A stretch of DNA of 64,000 nucleotides, from positions 62,001 to 126,000 of the forward strand of contig JAJLTO010000018.1 of assembly GCA_030568195.1 (NCBI GenBank), written 5' to 3'. Position 1 is the first letter of the stretch. Every line of letters starts with the position of its first letter. The stretch comes from Dipodascopsis uninucleata var. uninucleata. Its lineage: Eukaryota; Ascomycota; Lipomycetes; Lipomycetales; Lipomycetaceae. A program made the position numbers and the translations under genes. Below the pieces are notes generated by a model. It was not told where the DNA came from, searched no databases, and saw nothing but the letters and a program-made list of their open reading frames with translations. Shown piece by piece: positions 14,644 through 59,800 of the stretch.

Positions 14644-15341
14644 GAAAGTGTTTTTAGAGATTTCAGTGGCTACTATTAAATTATTATATGTATATTTCAC
14701 GTACTTTCGAGTATAGTTAAATTAAGCCGCTGAACTGAACTGATCTCGGTTTCACCATATTAGCGATAAGCACTCTCTCCAATATCTATTGAAATGTAAA
14801 TTTCTGACCATGTGAAAATATGACTATATATAAATGGTTACCTTCTTAAATATCAGTTGCGGCCATACCAAGAAGAAAACACAGTTCCCCGTCCGATCAA
14901 CACCAGTTAAGCTTCTTTGGGCCTACTCAGTACTGCGGTGGGAGACCACGCTGGAATCGTAGGTGCTGCAATTCTTATACTTTTTTTTTTAAATCATAAT
15001 TTTTCCTAACCTGATATCGGTGAACAAAAAAATTAAACCTTTTCTTTTTTTCGCTATCTGCAAATCTATGAAAGTAGTTTTAATTTTTATAAACTTGGAG
15101 AGGGACAGTATAACACACGGGGTTAAGTGTATTAACAGCTAGAGCCTTTCTAACTCTTGGATGGATATGTATTAGGACAGCAGATGGATTTCTAGCTACA
15201 TGTACCACTTACCAAGCCAAAATATCCAGCGTCAGGAATACCTATCAAGCTTCGAACACAAAAGGTCTCGGTACGTTCATTAATAGCAAAAGAAATACTC
15301 TCGATGGCACCTTTGCAATAATATGTGCTGGTAGTATCCTG
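14644..15341. other. intergenic region, possible gene debris
   Basis: AT-rich sequence after the carboxylesterase with T homopolymers near 14980 and 15045. A short minus-strand stretch at about 15200-15330 reads coherently for about 30 residues (ERTETFCVRSLIGIPDAGYF) but is not assignable. No complete gene. Confidence 0.35.
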
Positions 15342-21500: not shown

Positions 21501-22801
21501 ACAACGAGATCTGGCTACGTACTTATTCAGCGGAGAGCCGTGCTAGCAACATCTCGTATCCTCACAACTCTCAAATAGATCCGTTGTGGGCTTTGGCCGC
21601 GCCCAACGTGCTCTAGTCTATTTTAAAGTCGTCGCGGACCATTTATGTAATAATACAAGGCATAAGTGTTTAGTACTAATATTCCGGTATAGTAAACAAT
21701 GGATTCGTTGAGTAAAAGCACCTGGGTCTTGATGTGCAAAGACACTCGGTGCCTGAAATCAGGGCACTGTACCTGTCGTTGGCGCTCTGTAATATAATCA
21801 ATCAGTAGCAGGAGCATTTGCTTAAGATGATTCTGCAAATGCGCACTTTAGTTGTCTATGTTATTTGTTTATATTATGTTGCCGGTCAAGAATTTCGCGT
21901 GAACAAGGTCAAGTTAGCACGTGTCCGAAATCCGAGATCTATGATGGTAATGAAACGGTGGCTGTTATCATCACAATAGATATCAATTACTTATAGTTGT
22001 TGATAGACACAATTGTTTTATGAAGTGGGTCTAATGTGGCTGTCCTGTCAAAATAACAGCTGCATTATTCAGGTTGACGAGATCCAGAAATGAATGAGCT
22101 TTCACTTAAATCTCGCTGTTGATGTGCATTCATTGCTCCACCTTCAGCCTCGACGAATCTTCAAGTGTAGTAGACTTAAGATTTTTAATATTCCACGTGT
22201 ATACTCTAGAGTACTTTAATCCCCTCTTCTTGCTCCCAGAGGAGACATGCGGGGAGCCGCCAAGTCACACTAAGAAGTGAGATCTGACTTTAAATAGATC
22301 GATCTAGGACTGTTCGAGATTAAGCTGTGGTCAGTGTGTATATCTCGTGCAAACCTTCAGAATCTCATCAAATAGAACGAGGTGCAGCTAGATGAACGGT
22401 GAATTGGTCTATTCTTTAAATCTGAGAAGCTGAAAAGTGATAGCCAGCACTTCGACCTTTCTATAACGCGATATTAAAATAATATTAACGACAGATAACC
22501 TAAGCAAATCTATTGTCAGAGTCTAGCAGGGACTATCAAGTGGGGATTTTATAATATGGCTATTCATTGCGTGGACGCTCCTTATACTTGTGGTAACGAG
22601 ATCCAAACGAGCCGTTTATCAAGTTAGATTCGAAATCCACATATCTGACACCTATTGTCGCTAGTCACGTCGTGCATTAAAGACACACGTATTGTTTAAT
22701 TCTATATCAACCATCTTGTTCTATATTGGAAAGAAATAAAATATCACGTCTGCGGTTCGTCTGGCGAAATATAGAGTATACATTAAATTCAGAGAGACAG
22801 A
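18566..22801. other. 4.2 kb gene-free region between two sugar porters
   Basis: The two flanking porter genes diverge from this region. Only short, unconserved frames are seen (the longest are overlapping minus-strand frames of about 100 codons at 19.6-20.0 kb), with no domain, no intron-joined protein and no tRNA T-loop motif that folds. The base composition is intermediate and no tandem repeats are visible. It may be decayed genes, a long regulatory region or a chromosomal element. Confidence 0.45.
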
Positions 22802-24597
22802 ATGGCCGGCAGTCAACCATTTAATATTTTCAAACTAAGCACTGGTAGTACTCCCAAAGAAGCACTCAACTGGAGATTGTTCACTGCAGTTCTCTGCTTT
22901 GGACTCATGGGAGCTTCAAGAGGCATTGATGAAGGTCTAATATCCGGTACGATCCAGCAGGTATCATTCATTGAACAATATCATCTTAATGATCCTAATC
23001 TGAGTACTCAGAAGCGCTTGCAGATTACTGGGAATATAACTGCCATGGTCCAGATAGGCTGCGTTTTCGGATCCATTGTCGCATTTTTGGTCTGTGATCG
23101 CATTGGCCGTATTTGGGCTACGCGAGAGCTTTGTGTCGTCTGGATCGTGGGCATTATAATTTTCCTGACCGCCGACGGTAAACTTGGTCAAATATACGGT
23201 TTGTCAATACCCAAAATAGTTCTAAAGAACATGTACGAGAGCATTACTGATGGTTGTCATAGCTGGCCGCTTCATAGCGGGAGCAGGAATTGGTCAGACC
23301 GCTGTTGTTGCGCCAACATATTTGGCTGAGATCGCACCTAGAGCTATCCGTGGACTTTGCATATGCGTATTCTCGGGTAGTGTCTATCTAGGAATCATGT
23401 TAGCATATTTTGCTAGTTGGGGTGCCGCCACAAACATTAGCAATGAGAACAATCTACAATGGGTACGTACAGTTCATGAAAGTTACTTGCAGACAGCCGT
23501 TAATTTAATCTAGATTTTACCCTCAACAATGCATATTATGTTCGCAGTTGTTATTCTTGTTCTGACATTCTTTACTCCTGAGTCGCCAAGATACTATCTG
23601 AAAGTAGGCGAATATGAAAAAGGTGTGAAGACCTTATCTTATATAAGAAACCTCAAACCGGATCATTCATACGTTGAACAAGAAGTGAACGAAATCCAGG
23701 ACCAACTTATGATTGTGAGTGAAAAAAGTGAACTAGATCGGGTACTATCTAACGATTTTCTAATAGGAAGAAGACGCTAGCAGTAGTTCTAGATGGTTTG
23801 GCACTGTAAAGGAGCTCTTCACCAGTCGCTCCAATTTATACTGTTTACATATCGGTATCATGTCGCAGCTCTTAGGACAATGGAGCGGTGCGAGTAGCAT
23901 AACCATATATGCACCTAGCTTTTTTGAAATGCTAGGAAACACTGGTCAAGGCGAAAAACTCTTTGCAACTTGTATTCTTGGAATTGTCAAGCTTGTGGCA
24001 TCACTAGCATGTGCTCTGTTTCTTATCGACTTTCTAGGGAGAAAGAGAGCACTAAGCATAGGTATTTCTCTTCAAGTCATCTCTATGTTGTATATTGCGA
24101 TATACCTTACAGCTGTACCTCAGCTTGAGTATAGTGCAAACGTTACAGGATCAGCAAAGAGCGCAGGAAAAGTAGCAGTCGCGTTTATATATTTCTCAGG
24201 AATTGGATGGGCCGTCGGCTGGAATTCATTACAATACTTAATCAATGCAGAAATCTACCCGCTTCGCGTTAGAGCTCTCGGAAGCTCTCTGATTATGTGC
24301 TTTCACTTTATCAACCAATATGCTAATAGTAAAACTGTTCCACTTATGCTGAGTAAATCCTCTCTCACTCCAGCTGGCACATTTTGGTTTTTCGCAGCTG
24401 TCACACTCCTAGGGCTCGTCTGGATGCATTTTTTCTTGCCAGAAACTTCCAGTCTCTCCCTTGAAGGAACGCAAGTCCTGTTTCAGCAGCCTTGGTACAA
24501 GATTGGTCGTACCACGTTCATTTCAGAGGAAACAGATGCCGATATCAGTAGTAAAGTCAACAGCCTTCCAAATGACAAACTATCTGATGCTACATGA
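22802..24597 (+). CDS. MFS sugar porter (hexose/polyol type)
   Basis: Four exons (22802..23198, 23263..23462, 23514..23714, 23767..24597) give about 542 residues. Features: GASRGIDEGLISGTI in helix 1, CDRIGRIWATREL, AGRFIAGAGIGQTAVV in helix 4, PESPRYYLKVGEYEKG, QLLGQWSGASSITIYAPSFFEMLG in helix 7, DFLGRKRAL, and LPETSSLSLEG after helix 12. Every junction was set by family continuity: GQIYAGRF, NLQWILPST, QLMIEEDASSSSRW. Intron 1 has a weak donor (GTTTGT); the others are GTACGT and GTGAGT. The gene opens the putative sugar-oxidation neighbourhood and lies only 179 bp upstream of the LDH2-family gene on the same strand, so shared regulation is plausible. Confidence 0.9.
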
Positions 24598-26915: not shown

Positions 26916-28924
26916 ATGATTGAACAAAATGGAGACTCTACGAAGAATCAACCTAATGAGGCTACTCGAGATTATTTGCGAGATTATGATCTGACCCAAC
27001 CTTTGGTCTCTAGTGGTGGACTTCGACATAGTCTGACCTCATATGGCGATCCCCATTTTTCGCTCTTCCTACGAAAAGTGTTCATTAAAGCACTTGGGTA
27101 TAGCGACGATGCTCTATCGAGGCCAATTATCGGAATTATCAATACTTACTCAGGTTATAATCCGTGCCATGGCAATGTTCCCCAGCTAATCGAGGCTGCA
27201 AAGCGTGGAATCCAGCTTAGTGGAGGGCTTGCAATTGAATTCCCAACTATTTCTCTGCATGAGTCGTTTTCTTCACCCACTAGTATGTTCCTAAGAAATC
27301 TCATGAGCATGGATACTGAAGAAATGATACGAGCCCAGCCAATGGATGCGTGTATTACAATTGGAGGTGAGCGAACTCTATCATTGTTAACCTATAGCTA
27401 AGCGCAAGTACTTACAGTCGAATGTACATCATCAAATAGGCTGCGACAAGACTGTGCCAGCTCAACTGATGGGTAGCATCTCGGCTGATAAACCCGTTGT
27501 ACCGCTGCTAACAGGACCAATGATGCCTGGAAACAACCGAGGAGAGCGAATTGGTGCCTGTACAGACTGCCGAAATAACTGGGCACGCTACAGAGCGGGT
27601 GAAATCGACATCGAAGACATTGTCAACATCAACGAAGAACTTGCTCCCACTGTACGTTGACGATATCGTTTATATGAAGCATTCGATAGACTCTAGTTCA
27701 CAGAAGGTTAACTAATGTCTTTAGATAGGAACATGTGGCGTAATGGGAACAGCTAGTACCATGGCATGTGTCATGGCGGCACTGGGTCTGGTACCCTTGA
27801 AAGGAGGAGCTTCGGCGCCTGCTGTGTCCTCTTCGAGAATACGGATAGGCGAAGACAGTGGGCGTTTGGCGGTCGACGTAGCTCTGCATAAGCGAACGCT
27901 ACAAGATGTTCTTTCTAAAGAATCATTTTACAACGCGATTACCGTGATTCAGGCCATTGGCGGGTCGACTAATGCTGTGATCCACTTGCTCGCCATCGTA
28001 AACAGACATCCAAAGCTTTGCGGAGTGATTACGCTGGAGACATTTAACGAAATCGGTAAGAAAGTGCCTCTCCTTATTGATCTTAAACCAAGCGGCGATA
28101 ACTACATGACCGACTTTCACAATGCAGGTGGCATGCTGGCTCTAATGCACACTTTGCGACCTTTGCTGCACCTGTCGGCGATGACGCTGACCGGACAGAC
28201 CTTAGGCGAAGTTCTAGACAGCACGCCGTTCAAGCCCTTCCCCTATTCTAGGCAGATCGTCCATGAGTTGTCAGAGCCACTGCACCCGTCGTCCTCGCTT
28301 CAGGTTCTGTATGGAAACCTGGCACCCAATGGTGCAGTGATTAAGGCATCAGCATCAAAGTACAAGAATCTCCTTTCGCACGCAGGGCCTGCAGTTGTAT
28401 TCAACGGAAGTGAGGACCTTGCGCGGCGTCTGGACGACCCTGATTTGCCAGTAACGAAGAATTCTGTGTTAGTTTTGAGGCAGATAGGGCCAGTCGGAAA
28501 CCCGGGAATGCCTGAAGCAGGCATGATTCCTATTCCCCGCAAGCTTGCTGCCCAGGGAATCCAGGACATGCTGCGCATCTCCGACGGACGCATGTCTGGA
28601 ACTGCCGGCGGAACCATTATTCTACACGTGTCGCCTGAGTCTGCGCTGCCAGATTCGCCCCTAGCTGTCGTTCAAGACAACGATGTCATCGTTCTGGACA
28701 CAGAGCAGGGTACTTTACGTCTAGAGATCAGCGACGAAGAGCTCTCAGCACGAGTGGCTTCTCGTGGAGTCGAGCTCGAGCTCGACCGCGTGCGCTCACA
28801 GCCGTCACATGTAGCAAACACGAGGCAAACCACGCGAGGCTATCGCGGACTTTACCAGCGGCATGTGAATCAAGCGCACGAGGGAGCAGATTTTGATTTC
28901 ATGACCGCCTCAGCATTTACGTGA
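26916..28924 (+). CDS. IlvD/Edd family sugar-acid (aldonate) dehydratase
   Basis: Three exons (26916..27366, 27440..27651, 27725..28924) encode about 620 residues. The family uses an Fe-S cluster and Mg2+ to dehydrate dihydroxy acids. Cluster-type cysteines lie in YNPCHGN, TIGGCDKT (Cys about 152) and IGTCGVMGT (Cys about 225). MLPG-like GPMMPGNNRG and GACTDCRNNWARYRAG, and a C-terminus RGYRGLYQRHVNQAHEGADFDF, match pentonate and hexonate dehydratases (L-arabonate or D-xylonate type) rather than the valine-pathway enzyme ILV3. No mitochondrial presequence is seen. Both introns are 73 nt, with GTGAGC and GTACGT donors. The product would be a 2-keto-3-deoxy aldonate. Exon 3 looks more GC-rich than exons 1-2 and the neighbouring porter. 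Confidence 0.9.
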
Positions 28925-51145: not shown

Positions 51146-52110
51146 TGGAGAGCTTACTCTTCAGAACATGACATCTGATTTGATTCATTTTGACAATTTA
51201 TATATGTCGTTTCAGTATACATTCTTTTATATCATTATTCGGTATCTTTGTAGCTTTTGTATCCTTTTTTTATTATTTCAGTTGTTATTTTTTGGGAGTA
51301 GAAGTATGGGTAACTCAGTCTGAATATCTGTTTATATACTCTTATTTTCTATGTATAAAATCTATCTAAAACACTGGCTGTTTCCTTGTTTCTCACTAAT
51401 TGTGTCGCCATTTCAGTAAAAGTTTCTCAGTATATTGTTTCTTTCTGATATATTATTTATGCTATAGCCCTTCTGCAGCGTCTTCCAGTTTCCAATCCCG
51501 TATCTTTCTCTTTCCTTTATTGTGCATTTGGCCTATTAGATCGTTATATATAATATATATTTATCATCATCATCTTTTTAATAGCTATTGCACTTGATTT
51601 AATATATATTGATTTTCTGTTTTGCCTTTTGGGTATAAGCAACCTGCCATATTCTTTACTGTACGCGGACTATATTAATAGTAGGAGCAAGTATCTACAC
51701 TTGTATATACAACTGAGTAAATCATGTCATGTATCATATTAGTTTTGTTCTACAATTAACCAGGATAATTTATGATATCTCAGTTAGCTTTAAGGGCAAA
51801 AAATTGTATTACAGAAATGAAAATACAGAATAAAATAGGAACACGTACAACGTGTTCTAACATCCACTTAAATCAATTCAGCTAGCGCATGAAATTACAA
51901 AAGCGACAGTAATTTCATTGTAAATCAATTAATTGAAACCCTCATTATCCAATTAGCATGCGAAACGGAAGCTGATATACGATACTGCATATGCAGAACA
52001 CATGAGCCTGTCATTGTCTCTTGCAAATTGAAGCAGTCCGCAGTCAGTATCGTTTTCACACGAAAGCGAGACATACGCCATCAGTCTCGCGGAGTCTAGA
52101 GGTTCCGGAT
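51146..52110. other. convergent intergenic region
   Basis: 965 bp between the ends of velB and MPC1. Strongly T-rich on the plus strand (3' UTR and terminator-like). No gene recognised. Confidence 0.45.
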
Positions 52111-53009
52111 TTACTTGGTAATAGGTGCGCTTTCTGCCTTCTTGTCACCGTTCAGACTGGAAAAGAACATTAGTTGATAAACTCAATCTCTTTCCGTGTC
52201 ATGATCATATAAAACAAACAATAAAGCTACTTACTACCAGTAGTTAACAAAACGGAATCCCTGGACGAGCTGAGCACACTCATTAACGAAATGGCATCCG
52301 AATAAAAGATAGTTTCGAGGAGTAATAGCCATACTAAAGCATATTAAAGAAATTTAGTATCTGTCGTCGATACATCCTTAAAATGCAGTCTGCCAATTTT
52401 TAATAATATAGACTCAGGCTAGTCAAAAATAAACTACATACGAGTATCTCATGAAAACCAAAGAGTAGACGACCAAAGAACCTGTCATGGCGCCAGAAAT
52501 AAGAACTGGATCTTTCTTAGTATCCATGACGGCTGCAATTGGAATACCAAAGTTGGAAACAGGACCTTGAAGAATAGAAAAAAGTTAGCATCCTAATTAC
52601 AAAATATTAGTAACATAATCTTCTTACCCCAGAAATGAGTAGAACAGACGTCTATTAGGCAATCAAAGAATATTATTAGTAATTAAAGATCGTTTATGTT
52701 ATATTATCGAATATATTGCCGACTTACACCTACACAACAATATTAGTCAGTTACTACAAGACTACCATCTCTATAGCGAGTCATGCTCATCGTTATGTTT
52801 GACCAATATATATCGCTTCTTAGCGACTATCTTTCCTCAAAACTTTTTACATTTCATGTCCCCTATCTTGCTGAAAAGCAAAATCACAAAATCTGCTGAT
52901 TTTTGTCTCCTGAACTTCCCCGGAACAATCTGTACACCCGCACTTACTTGACGAAGTCTTTACTGAACATGAAGTTCGAGAATCTGCTAAATACACTTCC
53001 AGAAGACAT
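52111..53009 (-). CDS. MPC1: mitochondrial pyruvate carrier subunit 1
   Basis: Six exons: 52948..53009, 52728..52729, 52628..52651, 52442..52565, 52235..52333 and 52111..52156, totalling 357 nt and 118 residues. The protein reads [20 protein letters not shown], then [35 protein letters not shown] and [17 protein letters not shown]. It is collinear with yeast Mpc1 (LKYIFTTHFWGP..., [12 protein letters not shown]). Mpc1 forms a heterodimer with Mpc2 or Mpc3 in the inner mitochondrial membrane and imports pyruvate. Three short hydrophobic segments are seen. Donors are GTAAGT, GTAAGT, GTAAGA, GTATGT and GTAAGT. The lysine-tyrosine pair at the first junction needs a two-base exon (see separate entry); without it the frame is lost. 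Confidence 0.92.
52728..52729 (-). other. MPC1: predicted two-nucleotide microexon of MPC1
   Basis: Exon 1 ends with AA and exon 3 begins with AC GTC TGT TCT. Conservation demands Lys-Tyr-(Val/Ile) between them, so two bases, GT, are missing. Inside the 296-nt interval, minus-strand sequence reads CTGACTAAT, then TTGTTGTGTAG, GT, GTAAGTCGG. That is a branch-like site, an acceptor, two bases and a consensus donor. A second branch-like TTACTAAT and a TAATAG acceptor precede exon 3. Flanking introns are 218 and 76 nt. It may be spliced as a true microexon or by a recursive step at the same site. Not proven by transcript data here. Confidence 0.75.
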
Positions 53010-53949
53010 TTTCTAAGTTTGCTGTGGTTTTATTAAATCAGCGCTTATAGTAAACAGTGATTATTCACTAGAAATGATAGTTTTATAAAATTCTTTGAAG
53101 ATTTCTCTATCTCTGTTAAAGATCCCACTTGAAACTGAAAACTCGACCTAAAATTTTTGGTGGGATATCTCGAAAATACTTCTCACGATAGAGAGTAGTA
53201 CAAATACCTTATATAAATTATACGGCGTCTTAACCCATGTTCACCGTAAGCGAACAGCATCAAGTCCGTTTCTACAATTCAAAAACTGATAAACACTGCT
53301 ACCGTGGACACAAACCGCTTAGGGTCAGCAATATTATTGATTAGTCAATCGTGCTCCTGCTACATGTTGGTATTATATATTTATATGGCCGTTGGGCAGC
53401 CCCAATAATACAGAATACGTAGACTACATATTTGTTTTACTAAAGTTTTTGTCTGCAGAAGACTAGAGCCTATGATTCTAAGATGATAAAAGTCAAAGTG
53501 GAATAGAAATACTGATTTATTTGGCAAGAAAATACGATATCTTAAAGTAGAGGATATACAGATGTTGGTATGGAAGCAGAAAAGGTGGTTATAACAGAGA
53601 AATCATACACAAGGAACCACAGTTATGAATAGCACTATTCTAGCGAGAACTAGTCTGAGAAATCCACATTGAGAGTTAATAATTCCAAAATATATAACTT
53701 GTAAAAATACACAACATAGGACCTCAGAAACGTATTAGAATTAGCTCATATACTTGAATATATATTTAAAAGAAGTCATATATCTTTTCACCAAAAAAAA
53801 GAAAAAAAGATTGCAGCTCGAATTACTATTTGAAGATTTATCAAACTGTACTAATATTGCTTAATTCAGAAGTCAAATGAGTGTACGTATAGATAAGGTA
53901 GCAAGAAACATTATTATTAGAAGCATAGAGATATTTGACTTGAGACTAA
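53010..53949. other. intergenic region upstream of MPC1
   Basis: 940 bp, very AT-rich, between two minus-strand genes. Nothing coding or repetitive was recognised. It should hold the MPC1 promoter and the 3' end of the INSIG gene. Confidence 0.45.
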
Positions 53950-56835: not shown

Positions 56836-59800
56836 CTAATTTAAGAACCCTTTACATCCTGCAGAACCGCAGAGACAAGGTATACGTTCGTCTGAATTTA
56901 CTTCTCGCTCAAATTTGTAGTCGTATGTGAGTTCTTCATTAGCTTGGATGTCTCGTAAGGCATATATGACAATTCTCTTCTGACCTTCCACTTTAATGAT
57001 CTTTGCCGTACAGCTAGGCGTACAGCAATGATTGATGAATCTTGCAATACCACCACGCTTCGTAGCATCGACTACTGTGCTTTCATCGATTCTAAACAGA
57101 TAGCTACTTCCAATACCATTCTTTAGGTATCGTCGTTCACGCATATCGGCAACTGGCTGTCGAATCACCTCGCCGACATATTCAATGATCATGTCATTTG
57201 CCGCAATATTCTCCATAGCATATAATCCCCAATTATGGATTGCCGAGCGTGCAAATCGAACAGGTTTCTTACGCTTTTTTAGCTGGTTGAATCGCAAAAC
57301 GTCTGTTTCATTACTGAGAATCTGCTTCTGCAGATTAATATCAGCAACTAGACGTCTATTATTAATTCGATTTAATCGTGAAGACGTTGAATCCTTTTCT
57401 CCAGGTGCATCACCGGTTGCGGCAACTAGTGACCCAGTTCCGTCGTCTAGTTCTTCAAGAACTGGTGTTCCATCACGAGTAGCTTTATCGTTTACATCTC
57501 CATTAGCATTATGACGACCTATTTCGGAGGCAGCCTCTGCGTGTTTCTTCTTGCGTAACCTCTTGCGATGCTCTAGATATTCTGTTTTTTCAGTTTCAGG
57601 GATTCTATAATATCCTTCTGTCCGAGCAGAACCAGTAGAATTTGTGCCATTATATTCATCATCAACATAAACTTGCTTTTTGACAGCACCACGATAAACA
57701 TTATCAAAAAAGTTAGCTTTTCGAAGCTTATGTAGATAAGACCAATAATTAACATCCTCAATATTAGTTGATGATACCACATCACGTAAAGCGGCTTGTA
57801 ATAACTTGAAGTCTTCATTATCAGATACAAGATTCTGAATACCATCAAGATCTAACACCGTATCTGATTCAAATGTTGATTGATCAATTACTGTATTAGG
57901 CTTCCAATAAGAATCATCAATAGTGCTCATGTCGAAATCCTCATCAGAAGGTGTAGGTAGCTGTAGATTATCCTCCAAATCATCTTTCTTCATTTTCAAC
58001 TTCGTATCTTCGGCTTCATCTTCTTCGGAAGTTGTGAAATCTATCTTCACTAGCTTTTTCTTGCGTTTCTTAACGTCAGATTTACGCTTTCGTTTCTTGA
58101 TGTCGTCCTGTGAGTCAGTTGATTTCAAGAGCTCCGAGTCAACATCCTTCATGGCCACATCTTCTTTCAAGCCGTCAATTGTCGAATCCTCATCACTGAA
58201 CATCTTTTCAACTTCCGATTTGTCGTATTTTATAACTTCAGCATTAGCGAAATTTTCATTCTCGTGATTTTCAGACTTAATAGTGAAGTCTTTTTCATCA
58301 TCAGAATAATCAGCTCTCAAGGATGGCTCCTTGAGGTTCTTTTGGGATGCCGCTGCAGCCTCATCATCACCAAACTCTTGGATATCATCATCAGAGAAAT
58401 AATCGTTCAACTGGTGATTCATTGGACGAGACAATCTAGCACGAGCATTATGATCAGATGATGACTTGTACTTCGATCTCTCAGGTCCAGACGTAAGATT
58501 TCGTTTCTTAAATCTAGGTAGAGAAGGTAACGTTCCTGAGAATGTGTGAATTGTAGGGATTTCATTGATGTCGTTATAGATGCTAACAATCTTTCCATCT
58601 GACGTAGTTGTACTCTCACTACTTACTTCCGTCGATGAAGCTGGTTTCTCTCGCGACTTGCTATCCTTACTTACTGCTGCCAGCTTTGCTGGATCAAGAC
58701 GATCATAAATAACGGGCACTGTTATTCGCTCCTTAATATCCTTGCGAAGCGCCTCTTGCAATTCCTTCATGATAGCCACAGTAGCATCTTTTACTGGATC
58801 GATCTCTTTAAGGGGTAACGACTTTGGTCTGCTTCGCTGTTTTCCGTCAGAGCTTTTTTCGGCTTGTCGAGACCGGGAAGAACGACCGGTATCATCAGCA
58901 CTATCGTCACTCATATCACCAGCACTTCTAGGAATATGAAGATCCATATTCAATCGATAACGAAGACGTCCCATCATTCGCCCATCCAAATCAAGAAAAC
59001 AAGCTCTGGCTTCTTTAGCGCTCTCAAAAACAATATAAAAGCCAGGACGCTCGTTCTCCTCTTCATCAAACTTTCTGCTACTACGTCTATCACGATCTCG
59101 TCGATAAGAATCTCGTCTATAAGACTCTACAGCAAATACTGAAACCCAGTCATACGATCGTAAGTAGTCCTTCATATCGGAAACGTAAACCTGTGTCGTA
59201 GAAACATATCTATCTGAAATAAAAATATAGGGACGACCGTCAATTCGTGACAAAACACTGTTGCTATACTTCCGTGCGATATGTCGACTGCTTCCTCCAT
59301 AATATGAATTATCGTCAGAGCTGTGGTAATGTCTTTCACGTGAATGTGATCTTGAATCAGATGAATAAGGTGTCAAAGATCGGGAACGAGATCGAGAGCG
59401 AGAGCGAGAATGACTAGGCGACCATCGTCTTGCAAGTCTTGAATTCGATCGGCCTCGTGTTGGAGATCGTGAAGTACGAGATAAAGGACTGTTAGATCTC
59501 TTTTCATAAGAAACCGATGCTGATAATGGGGGAGGTGGTGGTGGATTAATTGTACGCGAAGACTCACGTAGACGTACTGCTTCTTCAACTTTCTTACTGC
59601 ATAAAATGCCATTGTCGTCAAACTCAACACTAACACTATCAAATCCAATTTTAATTCTTCCTGATTTTGCTGCTTCAACAGCCTTCTTAGCGGCTATATG
59701 ACCCATCACATTGTCACCGCCAGTTTTCTTAGTAAACAACTTGTCAGTACTTTTGTACCTAATTAAGCACATTCCCAATGAGACACCTGTAGTAGGATCT

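Follow-up and report, generated by a model that had tools for sequence, protein, structure and literature searches.

How does a gene for a mitochondrial pyruvate carrier subunit keep its reading frame when the two conserved exons that flank its first intervening sequence are two bases out of register? The question is raised by a locus on the minus strand of a 64,000-nt stretch of Dipodascopsis uninucleata DNA (the window), where positions 53009-52111 encode a product of 118 residues. In a profile search this product matched Pfam MPC (PF03650) with an E value of 2.2e-37 and 128 bits, the curated cut-off being 27, and human MPC1 chains aligned to it with 119.5 bits vs 36.1 at best for MPC2 chains, which identifies the gene, on sequence similarity, as fungal MPC1, a subunit of the mitochondrial pyruvate carrier. 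The gene model comprises exons of 62, 2, 24, 124, 99 and 46 nt, summing to 357 nt, and introns of 218, 76, 62, 108 and 78 nt, every one of them GT...AG; an in-frame stop at 53015 lies upstream of exon 1. Its features are the following.

52948..53009, minus strand: exon 1, 62 nt, starting at Met1 and ending two bases into the Lys21 codon
52958..52963, minus strand: alternative donor GTAAAG in exon 1, score -0.6, the use of which loses SKDFVKY
52730..52947, minus strand: intron 1, 218 nt, GTAAGT ... ACTGACTAAT - TGTAG
52722..52750, minus strand: cluster of splice signals, with overlapping branch-like CTGAC/CTAAT, the TTGTTGTGTAG acceptor, the GT exon and the GTAAGT donor
52728..52729, minus strand: proposed 2-nt exon GT, which would supply the last base of the Lys21 codon and the first of the Tyr22 codon
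52652..52727, minus strand: intron 2, 76 nt, GTAAGT ... TACTAAT ... TAATAG
52628..52651, minus strand: exon 3, 24 nt, completing Tyr22 and extending one base into Gly30 (YVCSTHFWG)
52565-52442, 52333-52235 and 52156-52111, minus strand: exons 4-6, Pfam MPC, with introns of 108 and 78 nt between them

The 62-nt intron sits before exon 4. Candidate branch points are placed near 52743-52747 for intron 1 and near 52676 (or 52663) for intron 2. Exon 3 is itself only 24 nt long, so that three introns fall within 26 coding bases.

Exon 1 ends in GTC AA at 52948, directly before GTAAGT, and the next conserved exon opens with AC GTC TGT at 52651, after TAATAG. These two exons, of 62 and 24 nt, miss a common frame by two bases, and when they are joined directly (predicted mature mRNA junction CAAACGTC) the exon sum drops to 355 nt and a frameshift leads to a stop after 44 residues. 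The bases GT at 52729-52728, preceded by CTGACTAATATTGTTGTGTAG (the upstream flank being also given as ACTGACTAATATTGTTGTGTAG) and followed by GTAAGTCGG, which brings the downstream GTAAGT, make up the deficit. With GT included (predicted junction CAAGTACGTC), a block of 16 residues aligns ungapped to human MPC1 SKDFRDYLMSTHFWGP, at 119.5 bits for the product; SKDF..Y is matched without a gap and the Lys-Tyr that GT supplies falls at the exact human spacing. Since the alignment is ungapped across the 16 residues, exactly two bases are wanted. As to which two, Tyr is restored whenever the second base is T, and the choice of the first base affects only whether Lys or Asn precedes it; the dinucleotides CT and TT (Asn-Tyr) would even score 295 against human MPC1, above the 293 of GT. 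Human MPC1, a distant comparator for one dipeptide, lends support to the Tyr, and the Pfam MPC scores (128, 128.1 and 127.4 bits) do not separate the isoforms. The codons joined across 52948, 52729-52728 and 52651 read AAGTACGTC, recreating a donor-like GTACGT in the mature mRNA, a hexamer that is also the donor of a reference intron at 27652.

This arrangement had been proposed in an earlier note on the same DNA, and its placing of GT, with exon 1 ending in AA and exon 3 starting with ACGTC, was verified in the sequence, as was the claim that GT is flanked by a branch-like site plus AG acceptor on one side and by a GTAAGT donor on the other. Recomputation likewise reproduced the exon sums of 357 and 355 nt and the frameshift on skipping. 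Two features looked for in an ultra-short (1-5 nt) coding microexon are present at GT, namely a canonical AG before and GT after the exon together with a branch-like site, and a need for the exon in both the frame and a conserved motif.

Splicing solutions were enumerated using GT donors, AG acceptors, introns of at least 40 nt and internal exons of up to 120 nt. From 5,504 two-intron and 281 one-intron combinations, 78 open full-length products were obtained, among which the GT-exon product aligned best to human MPC1, with a score of 293 vs 287 for the runner-up, and no other product had donors that all fit GTRNG. Among the best 25 of these 78, only for the GT exon was the internal acceptor preceded by a consensus branch site. 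The earlier statement that the conserved stretch can be built only if GT is included therefore holds for the 10-residue run to which it referred but not for an open frame as such, as 77 other full-length products exist on paper.

Splice sites were scored with a matrix derived from ten hand-picked introns of the window, three of them from the MPC1 gene and seven from elsewhere, ambiguous candidates being left out. The donor of intron 2 (52727) scored 10.1, the best value in 53009-52600, and that of exon 1 scored 5.5, the training donors spanning 7.4-11.9. The acceptor before GT scored 0.5 (tenth among the AGs of the region) and that of exon 3 scored -0.7, both below the training range of 5.9-11.2, on a matrix that is too small to judge acceptors. 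The whole intervening sequence (52947-52652) measures 296 nt and the ten reference introns 48-108 nt; intron 1, with 218 nt, is about twice the longest of these.

To estimate the chance expectation, the 296-nt intervening sequence was dinucleotide-shuffled 20,000 times and a branch site followed by HAG|NN|GTRWGY was sought. Any 2-nt exon arrangement appeared in 230 of 20,000 shuffles, and in 239 of 20,000 with a new seed (about 1.2%), one ending in T and hence restoring Tyr in 53 of 20,000 (about 0.3%), and a GT or AT exon in 40 of 20,000 in the first run and 30 of 20,000 in the second. In the 64-kb window AGGTGTRAGT was found once against 0.20 expected, and AGNNGTRAGT five times, where 3.82 would be expected. 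The latter motif is by itself no rarity in 64 kb, and the unusual point is where it lies, in coincidence with an independent need for two bases. When both strands were scanned for a branch site plus HAG|NN|GTRWGY with a 2-nt gap, two cases were found in the whole window, the second one at 58676 on the minus strand, inside the SET1 reading frame, where it is taken as chance. As a control, the middle of the intron was replaced by other window DNA in 5,076 constructs, which overlap (step 25) and are not independent. Some frame-restoring exon was obtained in 639 of the 5,076 and one of 30 nt or less in 349, and an exon equal to or better than GT was obtained in 8; all eight represent one site, a 2-nt exon CT at 24112 on the minus strand, with a score of 295 vs 293. 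By chance, a site at another place in the window would have served as well as the GT exon.

The two-base deficit, the canonical borders on both sides, the branch-like sites and the Lys-Tyr in human MPC1 spacing can all be read from the DNA. Judged on such sequence evidence, the first intervening sequence (52947-52652) very likely represents two ordinary spliceosomal introns around a two-base coding exon GT. The 2-nt exon put forward in the earlier note is the reading that frame, protein spacing, donors and branch site support best; the exon is probably real, and it would be among the shortest coding exons known.

Among the alternatives, an assembly error or a true mutation would make the intervening sequence a plain single intron: exon 1 would once have ended in AAGT before GTAAGT (a GTGTAAGT run) and one GT would have been lost, leaving a damaged gene if the loss is genomic. 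Such a GT repeat at the end of exon 1 would presumably be prone to loss, and the earlier junction predicted in this way, AAGTGTAAGTGCGG, resembles the microexon junction AGGTGTAAGTCGG. Nevertheless, a rare indel exactly at the junction is needed, together with the independent occurrence by chance of a branch site plus AG|GT|GTAAGT in the intron (the Tyr-restoring class of the shuffles, 53 in 20,000), and the remaining MPC1 exons are intact and in frame; we regard this explanation as improbable.

Three one-intron solutions keep the frame, with donor scores of -0.6 (52963), -5.3 and -5.9. The first of these, a single canonical intron from the weaker donor GTAAAG at 52963 to 52652, was not listed in the earlier note, which had named transcripts with any other frame-keeping junction that lacks GT as evidence against the microexon. 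Such a junction can be built from the sequence, it is open to the end and its product, a protein without SKDFVKY, has a Pfam score that is not lower (128.1 vs 128); however, it deletes the SKDF..Y block common to human MPC1 (107.6 vs 119.5 bits), its donor scores -0.6 vs 5.5 for the GTAAGT located 16 bases downstream, and the internal acceptor-donor pair is left unexplained. It is considered very improbable as the main route of splicing at this locus.

A single non-canonical AA...AG intron (52945-52652, 294 nt), with exon 1 two bases longer and no microexon, would yield a mature mRNA that is letter-identical to that of the GT-exon reading. It is given very little credence: cleavage would be needed two bases inside a perfect GTAAGT donor, and no role would be left for the branch site or the second GTAAGT donor. 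To our knowledge, cleavage two bases inside a GTAAGT donor has no precedent among U2-type introns. The identity of the two mRNAs follows from the fact that the exon is GT and the upstream intron also opens with GT, and as a result RNA-seq or cDNA, the check put forward in the earlier note, can confirm the frame but cannot place the exon. Splice-aware aligners are expected to show a non-canonical intron at the GT exon, which leaves no cDNA trace other than this apparently non-canonical intron, a route by which annotation may fail. In the open-licence literature searched, no report of hidden or GT microexons logged as non-canonical introns was found, and a search there for 'two-nucleotide exon' returned nothing related, judged by title and abstract.

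A longer cassette exon, e.g., one of 20 nt at 52870-52851 (CAG acceptor, GTAAAA donor), which keeps the frame and has its acceptor after a T-rich tract, is scarcely credible given that it has no consensus branch site before the acceptor, a donor score of 0.1 and an alignment score of 279 vs 293, as six extra residues would widen the SKDF..Y spacing. All cassette exons in the enumeration, which went up to 120 nt, fell below the GT exon in alignment score. Three further candidates were rejected. In a stwintron, where an internal intron splits or abuts a donor and no exon is left, the donor would be GTGTAA (-5.9) and the frame would be lost at 355 nt. A zero-nucleotide recursive site, AG|GTGTAA, would rely on that same donor at 52729 (-5.9), with the GTAAGT donor (10.1) two bases on. 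Finally, keeping AG before exon 3 (AAA GAC, KD for KY) needs an AT acceptor and gives 114.9 vs 119.5 bits.

Short fungal introns are thought to be recognized by pairing of their sites across the intron (intron definition). With a two-base exon in MPC1, introns 1 and 2 would each be recognized across itself, and the acceptor/branch complex of intron 1 and the donor complex of intron 2 would overlap on the two bases, so that the introns could not be removed at once and removal would be sequential, in either order. If only 52947-52730 is removed, the predicted intermediate is CAAGTGTAAGTCGG, with the junction CAAGT|GTAAGT, at which the strong GTAAGT would be taken over the regenerated GTGTAA; the latter is far weaker than the GTAAGT two bases on (-5.9 vs 10.1), and this difference would set the frame. 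If 52727-52652 leaves first, the predicted intermediate is TGTAGGTACGTC and intron 1 would then end in TGTAG|GTACGTC. The recursive splice site leaving two bases, which had been offered as a separate alternative to the microexon, falls away as such, being the same exon if intron 1 leaves first. Skipping of GT gives an mRNA in which the stop codon is complete at base 135 and the final exon junction lies at 309; the 44-residue frameshift product, with its stop far upstream of the last junction, would be a probable target of nonsense-mediated decay where this pathway operates. Considering that skipping would lead to a frameshift and probable decay, inclusion of GT is predicted to be essentially constitutive. 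The case bears on how spliceosomes acting across introns deal with two overlapping sites.

Searches for other features of the locus were negative within their scope. No Rfam match up to E = 1 that might explain the 218-nt intron as harboring an intronic RNA was found in 52000-53300, the predicted fold of intron 1 was no stronger than that of shuffles (z -0.66), and none of the repeats within 52100-53100 joined the two donors. MPC1 relatives were sought in two non-fungal collections, with no match in viral_contigs and 23 pattern matches in genome_contigs, none of them a relative. An Rfam scan of the whole window detected only 5S rRNA, elsewhere than MPC1: a 5S rRNA gene at 14855-14974 (plus strand, 97.6 bits) lies amid protein-coding frames, which suggests dispersed 5S genes in D. 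uninucleata. Other genes of the window encode a SET1-like protein, a Velvet factor and a fungal Zn(2)-Cys(6) domain, in keeping with a fungal genome. In a sugar-transporter-like gene (22787-24597) there is a seeming extra intron at about 23200-23300, for which a scan gave no convincing donor.

Two routes may have led to the GT exon. A new intron may have arisen two bases ahead of one already present; alternatively, the AAGTGTAAGT stretch where exon 1 ends may have lost one GT, with the internal AG|GT|GTAAGT rescuing the frame. A loss-and-rescue route of this kind was suggested for CYP621A by Nelson and Syed (PMC12940212). At the two donors, GTAAGTGCGG and GTAAGTCGG are alike, which would fit a donor duplication of the stwintronisation type, but stretches this short cannot prove it.

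A tiny exon also occurs in human MPC1, where it presumably lies within the Ser-Thr codons of STHFWG, some four codons downstream of the fungal GT position, and the two exons are therefore taken as separate. Trichoderma, too, reportedly has a microexon switch, not tied here to any MPC1 gene. The human exon (exon 2) is a constitutive 4-nt microexon, TACG; in minigenes, exons cut to 2 or 1 nt were still spliced and at 0 nt both introns left (PMC9929638). Like GT, it belongs to the MPC1 gene, is not a multiple of three and is needed for the frame. In contrast, the human introns exceed 12 and 3 kb, with branch points at -68/-64 and recognition by exon definition (PMC9929638), whereas those of the fungal gene measure 218 and 76 nt, with some 13 nt between a branch-like site and the acceptor. 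Two human 2-bp microexons are named in the same article, one in a minor transcript and one in a 5'UTR (PMC9929638).

In plants, 1-nt exons have been described in APC11 and VPS55 (PMC4674806, PMC8831610). The exon of Arabidopsis APC11, for which Guo and Liu proposed intron definition and sequential removal (PMC4674806), is like GT a coding exon of less than 3 nt between two introns, and differs in measuring 1 nt, in being from a plant and in having been examined experimentally, with constructs and RNA. Stwintrons, sensu stricto and sensu lato, are known from Lipomyces and other fungi as crowded introns that are removed consecutively (PMC7138796). As in MPC1, two U2 introns with near-duplicate donors are crowded at one position and removed in turn, but stwintrons are nested and leave no exon between them, whereas the MPC1 introns are consecutive and leave two bases.

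The closest fungal parallel is the 1-nt exon G of Fusarium CYP621A, supported by reads in two species and reported for 20 orthologues, the discussion giving 24 genes (PMC12940212). It shares with GT that it is a fungal coding exon of less than 3 nt, needed for the frame in a conserved motif and located in an unusually long intervening sequence, and that it would copy the first base of its upstream intron, as GT does; it would then have the same hidden property, of which no discussion was found in the parts of that article consulted (PMC12940212). The two differ in that the Fusarium exon measures 1 nt, lies in a P450 gene and is backed by orthologues and reads, and the MPC1 exon measures 2 nt and is seen in the sequence of one genome. 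Exons of 1-2 nt had been called extremely rare in the earlier note, a view that has to be tempered insofar as exons of 1-4 nt are already known (fungal, PMC12940212; human MPC1, PMC9929638).

A broader, rather doubtful idea is that tiny frame-setting exons have settled repeatedly in the N-terminal region of MPC1, arising separately in fungi and animals, that G and GT exons make up a hidden class, and that skipping could act as an off-switch for mitochondrial pyruvate import. cDNA would not reveal such exons, since their letters repeat the start of the upstream intron; if the idea is true, they would enter annotation as non-canonical introns displaced by 1-2 bases and could be mined genome-wide. 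Compared with the known systems, the 1-nt exons of fungi and plants and the tiny exon of animal MPC1 are already on record, and what would be new here is a 2-nt exon in a fungal MPC1.
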